From Treponema sp. (GTDB lineage: Bacteria; Spirochaetota; Spirochaetia; Treponematales; Treponemataceae): a DNA stretch of 64,000 nt. Positions 24,282 to 62,073 of the stretch are shown piece after piece (the stretch's first letter is position 1; every line of letters begins with the position of its first letter). The DNA lies in assembly GCA_024682655.1 (NCBI GenBank), contig JAIKYZ010000109.1:1-64000 (forward strand), in the 5' to 3' direction. A program made the translations under genes and the position numbers. The notes below the pieces were generated by a model. That model saw only the letters and a program-made list of their open reading frames with translations, had not been told where the DNA came from and did no database searches.

Positions 24282-24299
24282 ACCCCTTTTTATTGGGAA

Positions 24300-24424
24300 G
24301 GTTTAAATTGAATGGCTAAAATATCGCCATTCAATTTAACTTAGAGTTTCTTGCGAAACTCTTGTATTGCGAATCAAATATCCTCGGTTGTTGAAACAAC
24401 CTGCGGTATTTGATTTTAAGGAAG
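24300..24424 (+). repeat. Three-hairpin dispersed repeat, copy A
   Basis: TTAAATTGAATGGC-9nt-GCCATTCAATTTAA; AGAGTTTC-TTGC-GAAACTCT; AATCAAATA...GGTTGTTGAAACAACC...TATTTGATT; flanked by GGAAG/GGAAG. Confidence 0.95.
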
Positions 24425-24435
24425 TAAATTTTTAT

Positions 24436-25338
24436 ATGTTTAGCGATACTCATTTTCATTTTAAATTAATGAACGACGAATGGGGTCTTGATGGAAAAGA
24501 AGTTCTTTCATTAATGGCCCAGAGAAATTGTGCTTTTGGCATGGATATTGGAACTAAGGCTGATGATTTGGAAAAGAGGCAGTCTTCTATTGCCACTGCT
24601 ATTTCGTCAATTGAAGATAAAAGTCTTGCCCGTAAAGTGGAATCTTTTATTTATTTTTCTGCCGGAATCTGGCCCGATTTAGATTCTATTCATAATAGGG
24701 TAGAAAAAATGAAAACCCTGGAAGATTTTATAAAAAAGGCTGAAAATATTGGAGCTGACAGTCCGCTTTCTAATTTGCATACAAAAATAATTGCTATTGG
24801 AGAAGGCGGTTTAGATCATCACTGGAATCCTTCTGGAGCAGACGGCCGTTGTCAAAGTGATTTTGATCAGCTAACTTTTGATGGGGAAAAAGAACTTTTT
24901 GAAATGCAGCTTGCCCTTGCAAAAAAAATGGATCTTCCAATTGTAATTCACAGTCGTGATGCTTTTGAAGATACTTTGGATTGTATAAAAAATTCAGGTC
25001 ATAATAAGGGAATTCTTCACTGTTTTAGTTATGGTCTGGATGAGGCCCGCCAATTTTTGGATTTAGGTTATTATATCAGTCTTAGCGGCAGTGTAACTTA
25101 TACTAAAAAATCCAAGATGGAAGATATGAAGGCTCTTTTAAACTTTATTCCAAAAGATAGAATCCTCTGCGAAACCGATTCACCTTATCTGGCCCCTGTT
25201 CCTTTTAGGGGACAGAAAAACTCTCCTTATCTGGTTGAACATGTTTATGATTATATTGGAAATAATATTGGAATGAGTAAAGAAGATTTAAGCCAGCTGG
25301 TAGATTCAAATATCCAAGCTTTATTCTTTAAAAAATAA
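24436..25338 (+). CDS. TatD-family metal-dependent hydrolase
   Basis: FSDTHFHF, GEGGLDHHW, IVIHSRDAFEDTL, LHCFSYG, ETDSPYLAP. The ORF start at 24367 lies in the repeat, so ATG 24436 is preferred. Confidence 0.9.
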   Translation: MFSDTHFHFKLMNDEWGLDGKEVLSLMAQRNCAFGMDIGTKADDLEKRQSSIATAISSIEDKSLARKVESFIYFSAGIWPDLDSIHNRVEKMKTLEDFIKKAENIGADSPLSNLHTKIIAIGEGGLDHHWNPSGADGRCQSDFDQLTFDGEKELFEMQLALAKKMDLPIVIHSRDAFEDTLDCIKNSGHNKGILHCFSYGLDEARQFLDLGYYISLSGSVTYTKKSKMEDMKALLNFIPKDRILCETDSPYLAPVPFRGQKNSPYLVEHVYDYIGNNIGMSKEDLSQLVDSNIQALFFKK

Positions 25339-35409: not shown

Positions 35410-35534
35410 GGTTTAAATTGAATGGCTAAAATATCGCCATTCAATTTAACTTAGAGTTTCTTGCGAAACTCTTGTATTGCGAATCAAATATCCTCGGTTG
35501 TTGAAACAACCTGCGGTATTTGATTTTAAAGAAG
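35410..35534 (+). repeat. Three-hairpin dispersed repeat, copy B
   Basis: Internally identical to copy A; flanked by AGAAG/AGAAG; lies between convergent genes. Confidence 0.95.
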
Positions 35535-47499: not shown

Positions 47500-47521
47500 A
47501 TTAATTTTAAATTTTAGGAAT

Positions 47522-47645
47522 GTTTAAATTGAATGGCTGAAATATCGCCATTCAATTTAACTTAGAGTTTCTTGCGAAACTCTTATATTGTGAATCAAAT
47601 ATCCTCGGTTGTTGAAACAACCTGCGGTATTTGATTTTAAGGAAG
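47522..47645 (+). repeat. Three-hairpin dispersed repeat, copy C
   Basis: Same three hairpins; loop and spacer substitutions; lies between the MacA-like and ATPase genes. Confidence 0.95.
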
Positions 47646-47655
47646 GTGAGAAAAT

Positions 47656-48333
47656 ATGAGCCAGGCAGTTGTAAAACTTGATAAGGTAGTAAAGACCTAT
47701 TTTATGGGAGAAAACCAGGTTCAGGCCCTTAAAGGAATTTCTTTTGAGATTAAAGAAGGTGAATTTACGGCAATTATGGGGCCTTCAGGTTCTGGTAAAT
47801 CTACCTGCATGAATATGATTGGATGTCTTGATAAACCCAGCAGTGGAATTGTTGCAATAAACGGAAAAGAAACCTCCCTTATGAGCGAAAAGGAACTTGC
47901 ACAGCTTAGAAATAAAACAGTTGGTTTTGTTTTTCAGCAATATCATTTAATTCCTGCTATTACAGTCTTAGAAAATGTTATGCTACCCTTGAAATACCAG
48001 AAGGTTGAAAAAAAAGAAAGAGTGGAAAAGGCTCTTATGGCCCTGGAGTCTGTTGGCCTGAATGATAGAATAAGTCACAGGCCTCATGAACTATCTGGTG
48101 GACAAAAACAAAGAGTTGCCATAGCCCGTGCTATGATTACAAAACCTAAAATCCTTTTAGCAGATGAACCAACAGGAGCTTTGGATAGCCAGACTGGACA
48201 GCAGGTAATGGAACTTTTTAGGGAAATTAATAAAAAAAATGGTACCAGCGTAATTATTGTAACCCATGATCCAAGAATTGGGGCAAGTGTAGAACGTTGT
48301 ATCAAAATATTTGATGGTTTAATCCAGGATTAG
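47656..48333 (+). CDS. ABC transporter ATP-binding protein (MacB/LolD type)
   Basis: GPSGSGKSTCMNMIGCLDKPSSG, LSGGQKQRVAIARAM, LLADEPTGALDS. Confidence 0.95.
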   Translation: MSQAVVKLDKVVKTYFMGENQVQALKGISFEIKEGEFTAIMGPSGSGKSTCMNMIGCLDKPSSGIVAINGKETSLMSEKELAQLRNKTVGFVFQQYHLIPAITVLENVMLPLKYQKVEKKERVEKALMALESVGLNDRISHRPHELSGGQKQRVAIARAMITKPKILLADEPTGALDSQTGQQVMELFREINKKNGTSVIIVTHDPRIGASVERCIKIFDGLIQD

Positions 48334-55684: not shown

Positions 55685-56407
55685 ATGACAAATATTACTG
55701 TAATAATTACCGCTGCCGGTTCTTCAAGTAGGATCGGTAATGGTATAAAAAAAGAATATTTACCTTTCAAAAATGGCACAGTTCTAAGTAGCTGTGCTAA
55801 AACTTTTTTTAAAGCCCTGGAAGAAGGTCCTCAAAATTACAATTTTTTAAATCTTATAATAACTTGTCCACCGGGCCAGCTTATTAAATGTCAGGAACTT
55901 TTATTTTCGGACGGGGAATTTCTAGAATTATTACAAGCCGACATAAGAAGCCCTGATTTTTTTAAAATTGTAGAAGGCGGGGCTTCCAGACAGGAATCAG
56001 TTTATAAGGCTTTGAAAGCAGTAAAAGATTCTACCCAAATAGTTTTAATTCATGACGGAGCCAGACCCTTTGTAAGTCAGGAAATCATTCAAAAGGGAAT
56101 AGAAACTGCCCTTACTTATGGCGCCAGCGTTCCTGCAATTACCCCAATAGATACCCAAAAAGAAATTGACCAAAAAGGTTTTATAAGCCGTCATCTTTGC
56201 CGAAATCAACTTGCTTCTGTACAAACTCCTCAAAATTTTACTTTTGAATCTTTGTTACAGGCTTATACCAAGGCAATGAAGAGTAAGCAAACTTATACAG
56301 ATGATACAGAAATATGGGGACAATATTGTGGCCCTGTAAAAACCTATCAGGGTAGTCCGGAAAATATAAAAATAACTTATCCTCAGGATTTGGAAAAATT
56401 AAATTAA
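55685..56407 (+). CDS. ispD: 2-C-methyl-D-erythritol 4-phosphate cytidylyltransferase
   Basis: ITAAGSSSRIGNGIKKEYLPF, VLIHDGARPFVS, DDTEIWG. Confidence 0.93.
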   Translation: MTNITVIITAAGSSSRIGNGIKKEYLPFKNGTVLSSCAKTFFKALEEGPQNYNFLNLIITCPPGQLIKCQELLFSDGEFLELLQADIRSPDFFKIVEGGASRQESVYKALKAVKDSTQIVLIHDGARPFVSQEIIQKGIETALTYGASVPAITPIDTQKEIDQKGFISRHLCRNQLASVQTPQNFTFESLLQAYTKAMKSKQTYTDDTEIWGQYCGPVKTYQGSPENIKITYPQDLEKLN

Positions 56408-56532
56408 GGTTTAAATTGAATGTCTAAAATATCGCCATTCAATTTAACTTAGAGTTTCTTGCGAAACTCTTATATTGCCAATCAAATATCCTCGGTTGTT
56501 GAAACAACCTCCGGTATTTGATTTTAAGGAAG
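56408..56532 (+). repeat. Three-hairpin dispersed repeat, copy D
   Basis: Begins directly after the ispD stop and ends with AAGGAAGG before ispF; one stem mismatch (GTC versus GCC). Confidence 0.95.
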
Positions 56533-56540
56533 GAAAAATT

Positions 56541-57017
56541 ATGATAAGAGTTGGTCTTGGATATGATTTACACAGATTAGTAGATGGTAGAAAGCTGCTT
56601 TTAGGTGGAGTGGAGATTCCTTTTGAAAAGGGCGAAGACGGTCATTCCGATGGAGACTTACTTTTACACGCTATAACCGATGCTCTTTTGGGGGCCAGTG
56701 GCCTTGGCGATATTGGCTCTTATTTTCCCCCAGAAGAAGCAAAATGGAAGGATGCCGATTCTGCTTTTTTATTAAAAACAGTACTAAAAGATATTTACAA
56801 GGCTGGCTGGAAGATTGAAAACCTGGACTGCGTTGTAAAACTTGAAAAACCAAAATTTATTCCTTTCCGTCAGCAGGTTATTAATTCTATTGCTTCTATA
56901 CTTGAAATTAATCCTGACCAGGTCTTTGTTAAAGCAAAAACGGGAGAGAAAATCCCTCCCGTTGGTACAAGTCAGGCTTTAGAAGCCTATGTTGTTTGCC
57001 TTCTATCTAAAGACTAA
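56541..57017 (+). CDS. ispF: 2-C-methyl-D-erythritol 2,4-cyclodiphosphate synthase
   Basis: MIRVGLGYDLHRLVDGRKLLLGGVEIPFEKGEDGHSDGDLLLHAITDALLGA. The ORF start at 56475 is inside the repeat. Confidence 0.95.
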   Translation: MIRVGLGYDLHRLVDGRKLLLGGVEIPFEKGEDGHSDGDLLLHAITDALLGASGLGDIGSYFPPEEAKWKDADSAFLLKTVLKDIYKAGWKIENLDCVVKLEKPKFIPFRQQVINSIASILEINPDQVFVKAKTGEKIPPVGTSQALEAYVVCLLSKD

Positions 57018-57033
57018 AGACCTTTACTTTTGA

Positions 57034-60000
57034 TTAATCTGGGAAGGTATCCAGTAATAATTCAATTTCATTTTCTGTTCTGTGGAATCTTTCAGAAAGT
57101 TCTTTAATTGTCCAGCCGTCTCTTTTAAGACCTCTTATAGATTCTTTTTCGCTTGGAGAAATTGAAGAATTATCGTATGGCCCAATCTTATCTTTTTCAT
57201 CAATCATCTTAAGGGTATTGAACTTTACGTTAACTCTCTTTTCTAATTCCTGAAGACTAATTGAAGCCTTTGTAATTCCGTTTTTAGCAGAATTCATTTC
57301 ATCAATTTTGTGCTGGGTTTCTGTTACTAAAGAAGATAAATCTTTAAGTCTGCCGATTGCTTCTGTAATTTTTGGTCCGTCATTAATAATCTTGTCGATG
57401 TTATTCTGGGTTTCTTTAATTTCCTGAGGTAAAGAAACAATCTGACGGTTACAATCTTTAATCATCTGTTCCAGTTCCTGAATCTTGGCAAAAGAAGTAT
57501 CTACATCTTTAGAAACTCTGTCTATAACTTCGCTTTTCTTGTCCAATCTTTCAAACTGGCCCGAAACCTGTACAAGTCTGTCGGTATAATCTTTTACAGT
57601 AACCTGCATTGAAGTAAGGTCATCATTAGTTGTAGTTAAAGTCTGCATTCTGCTGTCGATTGTGTTTGAAAGGGCAAAAAGTTTACCAAACTGCTGTTCA
57701 AGGTTTGTAACACGATTCTTTTGATTTTCGATTACGCTGATTTGTTCTTCAACCTGATCGTTAATCTTTTTCATAGAAAGGTACTGGTTGTTAATTCTGT
57801 TTGCAGTTGTGTCAAATTCTTCCAGTTTTGCAAAAGTTTCGTTCAAAGACTGGAAATTATTTTCCAACTGTTTACGCATCTGTTCTGCTTTTTCGTAAAC
57901 CTGCATATTAGTTTTTACAGCCTGAATTTCTTTTGTAATATCGTTTATTGAATGCTGAAGGTCATTTGTTTCGTTCTGCATTTTCATAATCATATTAGAC
58001 TGGCTAATTCTGTTATTTTCTGCGGCTTCGGTAATTTCCTTCTTTATAGTTTCAATAGACTGATTTGCATTTTCATTTTGTTCATCTATGCGTTCTTTTG
58101 TAGCTTCAAGCATTTGGTTGTACATAGACTGAAGTTTTGCAATGATTGACTGAGAATGATTTTTGTAATCTTCAAGGGAGCCCTGAGTTTTTTCTTCCAA
58201 CTCTGCAATTTTGTCATTAAGAAGATTATGCTGTTCCTGAACTGATTTTTCATATTCATTCATATTTTTCAAAAGACTCTGGCCAACTTCATTGATTTTG
58301 TTTTCGGAATTGGCCTTAATAGAATCCATCTGTTCATTGTAAATTGAACTTGTGTCATCAAATTGATTTTTAAGCTGCTGTTTCCAGATATTAAATTCTG
58401 AAAGGGCTGCATCAATTGCCGAAGCGGAAGTGTCCTGGCGGGTTTTTACTGCTTCTTCGAATTTATTAACATCTTCGAGTAATTGATTTTCTACCTTAGA
58501 AAGACTTTCCTGAACCTGTCTTGAATTTGCTTCTAACTGCTTTTTAAGTTCACTTTCCGAAATAGAAGAAATCTTATCGATTGAGTTATTAGTTTCTGTT
58601 CTAAATCTTGTAAGACTTTCTTTAATATCTGCCAGAGAATCTTCTAATTCATTTTTAGAATCTTCCAAAGACTTAGAAACTCTTGCGTATTGTTCGTTAG
58701 ATTTTTCGGTCATTGTAGAAATATTTGTCTTGAGTTCAGAAAGGTAAGATTCTTCCAGTTCTTTTCTTGAATTTTCGTAATTCTGGGCAAGGCTTGAAAT
58801 CTTCTGGTCAAAATTACGTTTCCATTCATCAAGTTGACTTTCCACCTGATTATTTTTTGTAGAAAGGTTCTTTTCGAAGTTTGATTCGAATTCCTGGAGT
58901 TTAGCGCTCATATTTCCTGTTGCAGAATCTTTGAGGGCATCCAGAGAAGAATTAATTTCGTTGATTTTATTTTCAACTGCATTTGCATCTTCTTTAATTC
59001 TGTTAGAGAAATCTTCGTGTTTTTCTTTCTGAAGGTTGGTGAAGTTATCAAAAGAAGTTAAAACTCTGTTCTGAACTTCGGCCATTGCACTCTTTAAAGA
59101 TTTTTCCAAAGTATCAATGTCTGACTGAGAAATTGAAAGTTTAGACAGTTTATATTCAATGTCTTTTTTGTACTGATTCAACTGTTCATCAACTTCTTCA
59201 AGAATATTCAAATGTTTAACTTCGCTTTCGTTTACAGCCTTACGAACTGAATCTGTAATGATTTTTGAAAGTCCGTTGAGTTTGATATTTGTTTCGTTCT
59301 GGAAATTTTCAATATTTGAATTAACTTCTGTAATTTTTCTTTCCAGATCAGGTTTTAATTCTTCTGTTCTCTTTACAGCTGCATCGCATTGGTTTTGAAT
59401 CTTTTCAAGAGATTCTTCTGCTGACTGAACAGATTTATTTGTCTGGTTGATAACATTTGTAAGGGTAGAAGAAAGAGAATCCTGCATATCTGTGATATTG
59501 CTTCTTAATTCCTGGTTTCTTTCGTTGTAATCTTTCATGTTGTTATCAATTTCATCGCGCAGACTTTCGATTTTGTTATTAAAATCTTTTTCCAAAACTC
59601 CAACTTCTTCCAGTTTGTTTGAGAAAGTATTTGTAAAGGCAGAAAGTCTTGTCTGGTAATCCTGGGAGATTTCTTTATAATCATCCTCTGATTTAGCCTT
59701 AATTGCTGAGATTTTGTTTTCGATATCGGCGGCAATTTTACTCAGGGTACTTTCGCGGTCACTTACCATCTTAGAAAGTTCTTCTGAATTTTCTTTTACG
59801 ATCTTATCGAATTCAGCTCTTATTGAAGCTTCAATTTCATCGTAATTTTCTTTGTTCTTAGAAATAATTTCCTGAAGTCTTTCTGAATAATTGTTCTGGA
59901 ATTCTCTTAATCTCTGGTCATTGTTGTTAGAGATTTCATCGAATCTTGAGTTTGTAATCTGATCCAGCTGATCAAGTTTTTCGCTTGTAGAGGCTGTAAG

Positions 60001-62073
60001 ATTTTCGAGTTTTTCTTTTGCATTTTCAAGAAGGCTGGAAGATTTTTCTTCAAGGAGAGAAAGTTTATTTTCTGTTTCACTTGCGATTTTTTCAAGTCTT
60101 TGATTACTTGAATTTTCAAAAGTTGAAAGTCTTTCTTCGGTAGAAGCGGTAATTCTATCAACTATATCTTTTGTGTTGCTTTCAAGATTAAGGAGTTTAT
60201 CTTCTGTTTCTTGTGAGAATTTAGCAATTCTTGAATTTGTATTTCCTTCGATTTCTGCAAAACGAGAATTTGTGCTTTCTTCAATTTTGCTGAATCTTGA
60301 ATCAGAAGAGCCTTCAAGTTGAGTTAATCTTGAGTTTGTTGAATTTTCAATTTCTGCAAATCTCTGATTAGTAGAGCTTGTAAGTTCTTCAAATCTTCTG
60401 TCGCTTTCTTCCTGGAAGGCTGTAAATCTTTCTGTACTTCCGGAAGTCAACTGGTCAATCTTAGCCTGACTCTGGTCAATAATATCGTTGATTTGTTTTT
60501 CGTTAAGGCCGGAAATCTGGTCAAGTTTCATCTGATTTTCAGATTCAATTGCAGAGATTCTTGAAGAATTTTCTTCTTCAATTTCCTGAATTCTTCTTTC
60601 ATTTTCCTGAGTAAGAGAATTAAGTTTTTCCTGACTGCTTGTAATAATTGAATTGATTTTGTTTTCGTTATCGGCTGTAAAGGCCTGAATCTTGCTTTCG
60701 TTTTCGTTTGTGTACTGGGTAATTAAAGAATCTACTTTTTCTACAAACTTTTTGTGTTCTTCTACAAAGCGGTTGTTAAAGTCATTAACTTTTTTGTTGT
60801 TTGTAGCGGTTGCGTGTTCAAAGGCATTATTATATTTTTCAGAGAATTTCTTAAAGTCATCATCAAATTTGCTGGTAAGAGTCTGGTATCTTTCGTCATT
60901 CTTATTCTGCATATTTGAAATCTGTAAAGAATATTTGTCTTCCATTTTTTTGTTATCGTCTTCAAAGCGGGCAGTAACTTTTGCAATAATGCTGTCGTTT
61001 TTACCGCCGATAGAATCAAGCTGGGCCTGATATTTGTTCTGCATAGTCTCAACTTTTTCTGCAAAAACATTTGAAAGGTCGGTAACTTTTTTGTTGAACT
61101 TGTCGTTTATTGTTAAAAGATTTTGTTTTACATCTGCAATAAGTTTTGCTTCTGCTTCTTTGTAATTTTTTACTGTAATTTCGTTCTTCTGGTCAAAATT
61201 AGACTGTAATTCCTTTGACTGGTCATCCAGAGATTTAGACAAATCCTTAAAGCGGTTTGTAATTTCGCTTGAAGCCTGATTGAACTGATTTGTAAGTTCT
61301 TTCTGGAGATTTTCTGTCTGAGCCTTTAATTCTCCCAGATATTGATCAGAACGGGCCTGAGCCTGCTGACTAAGATGAGCAAAGGCTGTGTTTTCAAGTT
61401 TTTCTGCCTTATCTGCTGCCTGATTGTAAACATCCTGGATATTTTGTTTTATATAAACAAGAGAATTTTCTGCTTCTGTCTTTGATTTCTGGATTTCTTT
61501 TGCAAGTTCCTGGGCATAGTTTTCGTATTGCTCTAAAAGTTTAGTGCCAACTGCCTTGAGCTGTTCTTCGTTATAATCAGAAAAGCCTTTTGAAACTTCT
61601 GGAATGTGTTTTTCAAGAGCATCAACAACATTCTGCTGTTTGTTTAATCTTGCAGACAGGGAATTTACAATTCCACTTTCCTTGTGCAGTCTTTCAAGGT
61701 TTTCTTCAACATTTACAGTCATCTCGCTCAGTTCGTTCAATAATTTTGAGTAGTGGGAAATTTGATTTTCAATAGTATTAACGGTTGAGATGCTGTTATC
61801 TAAAGATTTTACCTTCTGGTCGAATTCTTCATTCTGCTGTTTAAACAGTTTAATGGCTGCATTTGCCTGAGTCTGCTGAGCCTTGAATTCACTGATTAGT
61901 CCGTTAAAATCTGATTTGTAAGTTTGAATCATTCCTTCAAAATCAGACTGCCTTTTATCGGCATAACGTCTTACACTATCCATAGAGTTGTTGCTTTTGT
62001 TTAATTTCTGGAAATACAAGGAAATTCCAATTGAAGCAACAATTGAAACGAGAATTGCAATCGCTAAAGTCAT
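57034..62073 (-). CDS. Giant membrane-anchored coiled-coil protein (spirochaete SpiroCoCo-like)
   Basis: N-terminal TM then ~1600 aa of coiled coil; C-terminal HTH-like ESIRGLKRDGWTIKELSERFHRTENEIELLL. Confidence 0.85.
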   Translation of the reverse strand: MTLAIAILVSIVASIGISLYFQKLNKSNNSMDSVRRYADKRQSDFEGMIQTYKSDFNGLISEFKAQQTQANAAIKLFKQQNEEFDQKVKSLDNSISTVNTIENQISHYSKLLNELSEMTVNVEENLERLHKESGIVNSLSARLNKQQNVVDALEKHIPEVSKGFSDYNEEQLKAVGTKLLEQYENYAQELAKEIQKSKTEAENSLVYIKQNIQDVYNQAADKAEKLENTAFAHLSQQAQARSDQYLGELKAQTENLQKELTNQFNQASSEITNRFKDLSKSLDDQSKELQSNFDQKNEITVKNYKEAEAKLIADVKQNLLTINDKFNKKVTDLSNVFAEKVETMQNKYQAQLDSIGGKNDSIIAKVTARFEDDNKKMEDKYSLQISNMQNKNDERYQTLTSKFDDDFKKFSEKYNNAFEHATATNNKKVNDFNNRFVEEHKKFVEKVDSLITQYTNENESKIQAFTADNENKINSIITSSQEKLNSLTQENERRIQEIEEENSSRISAIESENQMKLDQISGLNEKQINDIIDQSQAKIDQLTSGSTERFTAFQEESDRRFEELTSSTNQRFAEIENSTNSRLTQLEGSSDSRFSKIEESTNSRFAEIEGNTNSRIAKFSQETEDKLLNLESNTKDIVDRITASTEERLSTFENSSNQRLEKIASETENKLSLLEEKSSSLLENAKEKLENLTASTSEKLDQLDQITNSRFDEISNNNDQRLREFQNNYSERLQEIISKNKENYDEIEASIRAEFDKIVKENSEELSKMVSDRESTLSKIAADIENKISAIKAKSEDDYKEISQDYQTRLSAFTNTFSNKLEEVGVLEKDFNNKIESLRDEIDNNMKDYNERNQELRSNITDMQDSLSSTLTNVINQTNKSVQSAEESLEKIQNQCDAAVKRTEELKPDLERKITEVNSNIENFQNETNIKLNGLSKIITDSVRKAVNESEVKHLNILEEVDEQLNQYKKDIEYKLSKLSISQSDIDTLEKSLKSAMAEVQNRVLTSFDNFTNLQKEKHEDFSNRIKEDANAVENKINEINSSLDALKDSATGNMSAKLQEFESNFEKNLSTKNNQVESQLDEWKRNFDQKISSLAQNYENSRKELEESYLSELKTNISTMTEKSNEQYARVSKSLEDSKNELEDSLADIKESLTRFRTETNNSIDKISSISESELKKQLEANSRQVQESLSKVENQLLEDVNKFEEAVKTRQDTSASAIDAALSEFNIWKQQLKNQFDDTSSIYNEQMDSIKANSENKINEVGQSLLKNMNEYEKSVQEQHNLLNDKIAELEEKTQGSLEDYKNHSQSIIAKLQSMYNQMLEATKERIDEQNENANQSIETIKKEITEAAENNRISQSNMIMKMQNETNDLQHSINDITKEIQAVKTNMQVYEKAEQMRKQLENNFQSLNETFAKLEEFDTTANRINNQYLSMKKINDQVEEQISVIENQKNRVTNLEQQFGKLFALSNTIDSRMQTLTTTNDDLTSMQVTVKDYTDRLVQVSGQFERLDKKSEVIDRVSKDVDTSFAKIQELEQMIKDCNRQIVSLPQEIKETQNNIDKIINDGPKITEAIGRLKDLSSLVTETQHKIDEMNSAKNGITKASISLQELEKRVNVKFNTLKMIDEKDKIGPYDNSSISPSEKESIRGLKRDGWTIKELSERFHRTENEIELLLDTFPD

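Follow-up and report, generated by a model that had tools for sequence, protein, structure and literature searches.

The four near-identical repeats in the window, the 64,000-nucleotide stretch of Treponema DNA analyzed here, belong to a real, family-wide, mobile hairpin element that is known in part as the Rfam motifs TD-1 and TD-2. The element is probably a small non-autonomous mobile DNA of the Treponemataceae with single-stranded-DNA-type movement, a GGRA end of its own and a GRA target. As far as the literature was searched, its description as mobile DNA appears new.

Four copies in the window

The first-pass annotation, made from the letters alone, had reported four copies on the + strand, and these are present at the positions given, with copies A and B identical within the element and a pairwise identity of 95-100% among the four. 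The exact ends, and hence the length of 124 bp, were fixed by the spacing of tandem copies and by empty sites. All four copies are intergenic, as reported, copy D starting right after the ispD stop codon, and the element has no protein-coding content, again as reported. Start codons lie directly downstream of copies A, C and D (TatD, ABC ATPase and ispF genes), and the GGAAGG upstream of ispF is supplied by copy D. The three hairpins described earlier are also found: hp1 (a 13-14-bp stem closed by a 9-nt loop), hp2 (a stem of 8 bp and a TTGC loop) and a third, composite hairpin of 11 outer and 6 inner pairs, labeled hp4 here because relatives have an extra hp3 between hp2 and hp4. The features are as follows.

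24297..24299, + strand: target trinucleotide GAA, directly 5' of copy A (target consensus GRA)
24300..24423, + strand: copy A, full 124-bp element (G GTTTAAAT ... TTTTAA GGAA), ends from tandem period and empty sites; at the Shine-Dalgarno site of a TatD-family gene (ATG at 24436)
24304..24338, + strand: hp1 of copy A, arms 24304-24316 and 24326-24338, 9-nt loop
24343..24362, + strand: hp2 of copy A, 8-bp stem, TTGC loop
24372..24415, + strand: hp4 of copy A, outer arms 24372-24382 and 24405-24415, inner arms 24386-24391 and 24396-24401, TGAA loop
24420..24423, + strand: right-terminal GGAA carried by copy A, which with the next G forms a Shine-Dalgarno-like site for the downstream gene
35410..35533, + strand: copy B, between the convergent lysS and ABC permease genes, in the same sense as lysS
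47521..47644, + strand: copy C, at the Shine-Dalgarno position of an ABC-transporter ATPase gene (ATG at 47656)
56408..56531, + strand: copy D, between ispD (stop codon ending at 56407) and ispF (ATG at 56541)

Elsewhere in the window, positions 57034-62073 on the - strand encode a protein of 1,679 aa that is matched repeatedly by Apolipoprotein A1/A4/E (PF01442) and is probably a long coiled-coil surface or structural protein.

Copy number and distribution

The draft genome that contains the window (G000; 2.74 Mb) carries ~65 copies of the element, bearing out the prediction of many genome copies. BLAST against this genome returned at least 44 near-full copies of 95-100% identity, just part of the candidates having been scored. 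Pattern searches of the whole genome, allowing up to 3 mismatches, found 66 hp1, ~63 hp2 and 61 hp4 places, versus 0, 3 and 0 in reversed controls. Because many places are at contig ends, the true copy number is probably higher. The hp1 places divide 33:33 between the strands, and nearly all have hp4 at the usual distance, the exceptions being truncated or nested copies; the spacing of hp1 and hp4 sites revealed no long element in this genome with an open reading frame between them. Tandem pairs with a 124-bp period occur on contigs C22, C46, C117, C122 and C136. At one locus (L192, C145:99918-100128), hp2 is replaced by a longer hairpin with GGGGATGTCCAATAAG arms, which holds a CATTGAGCTTGTCGAAATG-type palindrome, a case of repeats nested in repeats.

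The covariance search of genome and genus proposed by the first-pass annotation showed that, of 200 genomes in the genus, 72 carry the element; across the order, 76 of 394 genomes and 9 of 92 genera are positive, every one of them in a single family. Model hits are most numerous in T. parvum ATCC 700773 (82), Treponema sp. Marseille-Q4130 (81) and T. socranskii subsp. paredis (80), followed by T. porcinum (29), T. socranskii subsp. socranskii (27) and T. berlinense (9). The relatives of the window's genome are rumen and gut Treponema near T. bryantii, and one related species of the same subtype has 6 model hits versus the ~65 copies in G000. Divergent versions, first found in genomes G006, G010, G017 and G020, share the architecture of the G000 element. 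Each element has three hairpins in the window's genome and four in most relatives, which contain the extra hairpin hp3 (TGTTCGC...GCGAACG) that the G000 subtype lacks.

Conservation of the hairpins

Folded as RNA, the element has an energy of -45 kcal/mol versus -23.3 +/- 3.4 for shuffles (z = -6.4), while the other strand folded as DNA reaches z = -8.9. In an alignment of 15 versions, 96% of cells are paired in the named structure versus at most 48% in slid controls, compensatory change is seen at 24 of 44 pairs, and compensatory cells number 90 versus 30.8 in shuffled alignments (0/500). Subterminal hairpins are conserved at both ends, probably as a structure of DNA. In a set of 62 distinct copies (median identity 63%), 2,555 arm cells are Watson-Crick; the others, leaving out one position where a bulge could be drawn instead, include 17 G.U and 22 A.C of ~2,600 cells.

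RNA selected on one strand is expected to show G.U well above A.C, and this strand-specific tolerance of G.U pairs is not observed here. Since the arms covary almost only by Watson-Crick pairs, their covariation favors DNA hairpins; a transcript may fold too. A decayed copy in genome G217 has an inverted hp1 loop, as expected of cruciform or hairpin handling of DNA. It is thus quite unlikely that the family is a structured RNA, either a cis-regulatory 5' leader or an sRNA, whose copies spread because the RNA is useful. The strong conserved fold would suit such an RNA, as would the 22 of 56 G000 copies located directly upstream of start codons in gene sense and the filing of TD-1 as cis-reg and TD-2 as sRNA in Rfam. 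However, besides the equal rarity of G.U and A.C, TD-1 and TD-2 occupy opposite strands in related elements, the genes downstream of the window copies are unrelated, most copies are not at start codons, and insertion sites are polymorphic between related species.

Insertion sites

In 51 full G000 copies, the base at -2 is A in 50, that at -3 is a purine in all 51 and that at -4 is G in 37. The hairpin foot reads GRA-(K/C)-GTT, and at the right end TTTTAA is followed by GGRA (or AGRA) and then by a free base. The inserted unit is [K]GTTTAAAT...TTTTAAGGRA, its 124 bp in G000 being the exact tandem period. No clear guide tetranucleotide was found 5' of the hairpin foot; associations between internal sites and target bases track subfamilies.

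The mobility proposed for the element is supported by T. socranskii-group genomes in which sites with and without the element could be compared. Aligning 200 kb of two such genomes yielded a single empty site, by luck in a host repeat: CAGACCGATGGCAAGC, that is CAGACCGA^TGGCAAGC, is empty in G078 and also in G221 itself, and is filled in four copies as CAGACCGA[element...GGRA]TGGCAAGC. The four filled copies are probably one event copied along with the host repeat. The host repeat, GGCGGAACGCGAGGCAGCGG...CAGACCGATGGCAAGC, is distinct from the element and itself dispersed in the T. socranskii group (L428, L430, L398 and L407; empty at L385 and L377). At another site, G217 has the empty GACGGATGATTTTTTC and G221 the filled GACGGA[three elements...GGAA]TGATTTTTTC, a triple array inserted at GACGGA^TGATTTTTTC. 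Two further empty sites, TAATGA^GGGAGG and ATACCGAA^, agree within a few bases. By these comparisons, the insertions are clean, consist of nothing but the element, lie 3' of GA/GRA and duplicate at most 2 bp. At the site filled in L423, three other T. socranskii-group genomes (L450, L447 and L448) carry the same insertion at differing stages of decay, among them the G217 copy with the inverted hp1 loop.

A 2-bp target duplication was hinted at by a per-column comparison of the G000 flanks, and the left and right purines agree in 45 of 51 G000 copies (p = 1.5e-8), but it was not borne out by diverse lineages, where the agreement is barely above chance, or by the empty sites. The right GGRA is read as the element's own part because the left and right RA disagree at the GACGGA site and in three of the four filled copies of the host repeat, although insertion may still duplicate 2 bp (RA).

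The insertion sites also bear on the earlier suggestion of a non-autonomous MITE or mobile structured RNA. The family is dispersed, non-coding, non-autonomous and mobile, as that suggestion implied, but it is not a classical MITE, and RNA is disfavored by the lack of a G.U excess over A.C. That a DDE transposase moves it as a classical MITE, bounded by terminal inverted repeats and duplicating its target, is highly improbable. Size, copy number and non-coding nature would be compatible with it; however, the ends described as weakly inverted are not a genuine terminal inverted repeat, their outermost bases being only weakly similar, the empty sites lack a duplication longer than 2 bp, and the GRA target and the orientation are fixed. 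The absence of both hallmarks largely refutes this candidate.

Shine-Dalgarno sites and orientation

Of the 56 G000 copies, 22 lie 8-17 nt before a same-sense start codon, whereas a comparable position is held by just 22 of 240 intergenic GRA sites in the window (9%; p = 1e-9). This enrichment may come from target preference, from tolerance by selection, or from both. At one G221/G078 pair, the element entered TGA^GGGAGG itself, and the filled gene reads AAGGTAGGAAATTATG. Orientation relative to genes and to the replichore had been proposed as a check. Relative to genes, the same-sense placement holds for the copies at start codons, and the majority of copies lie elsewhere. Relative to replication, the strong hits of T. 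parvum, G078 and G063, all complete genomes, favor the lagging-template sense by 26 to 7, counted by eye with an origin near position 1 that is supported by GC skew in T. parvum and assumed for G078 and G063; this bias vanishes when weaker hits are included, those of T. parvum being unbiased.

Proposed mechanism and candidate movers

With hairpins at both ends (hp1 on the left, hp4 on the right) and one or two between, the element would move as a single strand recognized through its end hairpins, in the manner of IS200/IS605 ends and REPs. It inserts in one orientation directly 3' of GA/GRA and ends in its own GGRA. This right end is thus a new target, hence the head-to-tail arrays with an exact 124-bp unit. 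Likewise, as Shine-Dalgarno sequences contain GRA, the element would frequently land there in gene sense, and as the ribosome-binding site would be re-created, the insertion would be tolerated. The left cleavage point would be ~3 nt from the foot of hp1; in IS608 it reportedly lies farther from the hairpin foot. IS200/IS605 enzymes bind the end hairpins and cut at two tetranucleotides, that of the target and the last one of the right end, for the most part on the template of the lagging strand (PMC6006769). The element's own anatomy follows this pattern.

A full-length element or a transposase sharing the element's ends, which the first-pass annotation had suggested looking for, was not found at the inspected Y1 loci of the genus and of the window's genome; the inspected IS200-type and RAYT loci have other ends. 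The sole Y1_Tnp gene of the window's genome (RAYT-like, 249 aa; L143, C145:52790-53119) is flanked by GGGGACAGACCCC/GGGGACTGTCCCC repeats and is an ordinary REP-RAYT arrangement, unrelated to the element. In genome G010, a RAYT gene is preceded immediately by a distant version of the element (L144, 1867-2024, - strand; 71.5 bits), whose end lies in the Shine-Dalgarno site.

Mobilization of a REP-type element by the resident RAYT (Y1 transposase) of the same genome is unlikely. Y1_Tnp and the element co-occur above chance in the genus (29/53 versus 43/147, p = 0.0014), and the G010 RAYT gene has the element directly at its start. However, the RAYT of G000 is flanked by a different REP, the element bears no GTAG/GTGG tag, and no Y1_Tnp is present in complete genomes whose model hits number 14 to 82 (G063, G058, G081 and G082 (T. 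parvum)). Genus-wide co-occurrence and flank inspection thus do not support a resident RAYT as the obligatory mover, and a PF01797 Y1 transposase in the same genome would not be required for movement as a single strand. Membership in IS200/IS605 is not claimed, because several many-copy genomes lack PF01797 and the Y1 loci have other ends or a REP. Tentatively, the mover may be something other than a recognized Y1 transposase, such as a HuH protein of a new class, some other recombinase or an enzyme of the host, with a target rule that amounts to insertion into and rebuilding of ribosome-binding sites, and with the TD-1/TD-2 'RNAs' being misread mobile DNA.

Implications

If the proposed reading is true, two Rfam RNA motifs would be reclassified as parts of one mobile DNA family, and the element would serve as a marker of recent genome change for treponemes, oral species included. 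It would also offer a clear example of mobile DNA that inserts preferentially at Shine-Dalgarno sites and restores them. The question of the mover is directly testable, through the T. parvum protein that binds hp1 and hp4.

Comparison with known systems

The Rfam scan of the window gave no family above its threshold. In a permissive scan, window copy A matched TD-1 over hp2-hp4 with 39.4 bits (E = 2e-5), short of the gathering threshold of 64.5, and gave a weak TD-2 match covering hp2-hp1 of the other strand. Copies from T. parvum, the T. socranskii group and elsewhere reach the TD-1 threshold or come close to it, homologous copies scoring 68.3 in T. parvum and up to 79.3 in the T. socranskii group; in Marseille-Q4130, almost every locus is matched by TD-1 or by TD-2, the latter on the opposite strand. 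Lacking hp3 and scoring below the cut-off, the window copies are related to TD-1 but do not qualify as members under its threshold. Within clan CL00124, TD-1 (RF03155) aligns over its full length to hp2-hp4 of the element, and TD-2 (RF03162) to hp3-hp2-hp1 on the strand opposite to TD-1. Each model omits part of the element, and the Rfam output treats both as RNA and bears no mobile-DNA mark. The family announced as new is therefore not wholly so, being covered in part by TD-1/TD-2. A canonical TD-2 of T. parvum (L464:15593-15686, - strand; 74.9 bits) has the hp1-hp3 order of the element and a different 3' part; it is a related but separate subtype, a sister element type. The two motifs are usually attributed to Weinberg and colleagues. 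They are absent from the list of Weinberg 2010 (PMC2864571), and the literature search found no paper on TD-1/TD-2 or on dispersed Treponema repeats.

The ends of IS200/IS605 elements and their non-autonomous derivatives resemble the present element in having a hairpin close to each end, in inserting in a fixed orientation 3' of a short target, in lacking a target duplication (except perhaps one of 2 bp here) and in a right-end tetranucleotide similar to the target. Insertion 3' of a specific short target without duplication is seen at the empty sites and in the 51 flanks, with the same reservation about 2 bp. By contrast, the element has no TnpA/TnpB, has three or four hairpins and is cleaved on the left ~3 nt from the hairpin; its ends bear no relation to those of Treponema IS200-type copies, and no ends shared with a Y1 TnpA-encoding element were found at the inspected Y1 loci, several many-copy complete genomes being without Y1. 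A class 3 HuH group with CnGA-footed structures (PMC6006769) is a lead only.

Compared with REP/REPIN-RAYT systems, the element is larger (124-155 bp), is arranged head-to-tail instead of alternating and has no obligatory RAYT. Its hairpin foot lacks a REP-type GTAG/GTGG (or CGTC) tag, and the RAYT gene of G000 is flanked by GGGGACAGACCCC instead of the element, G010 being the one exception. The element shares with these systems intergenic palindromic repeats in tens of copies, tandem clusters and lineage-specific arm sequences.
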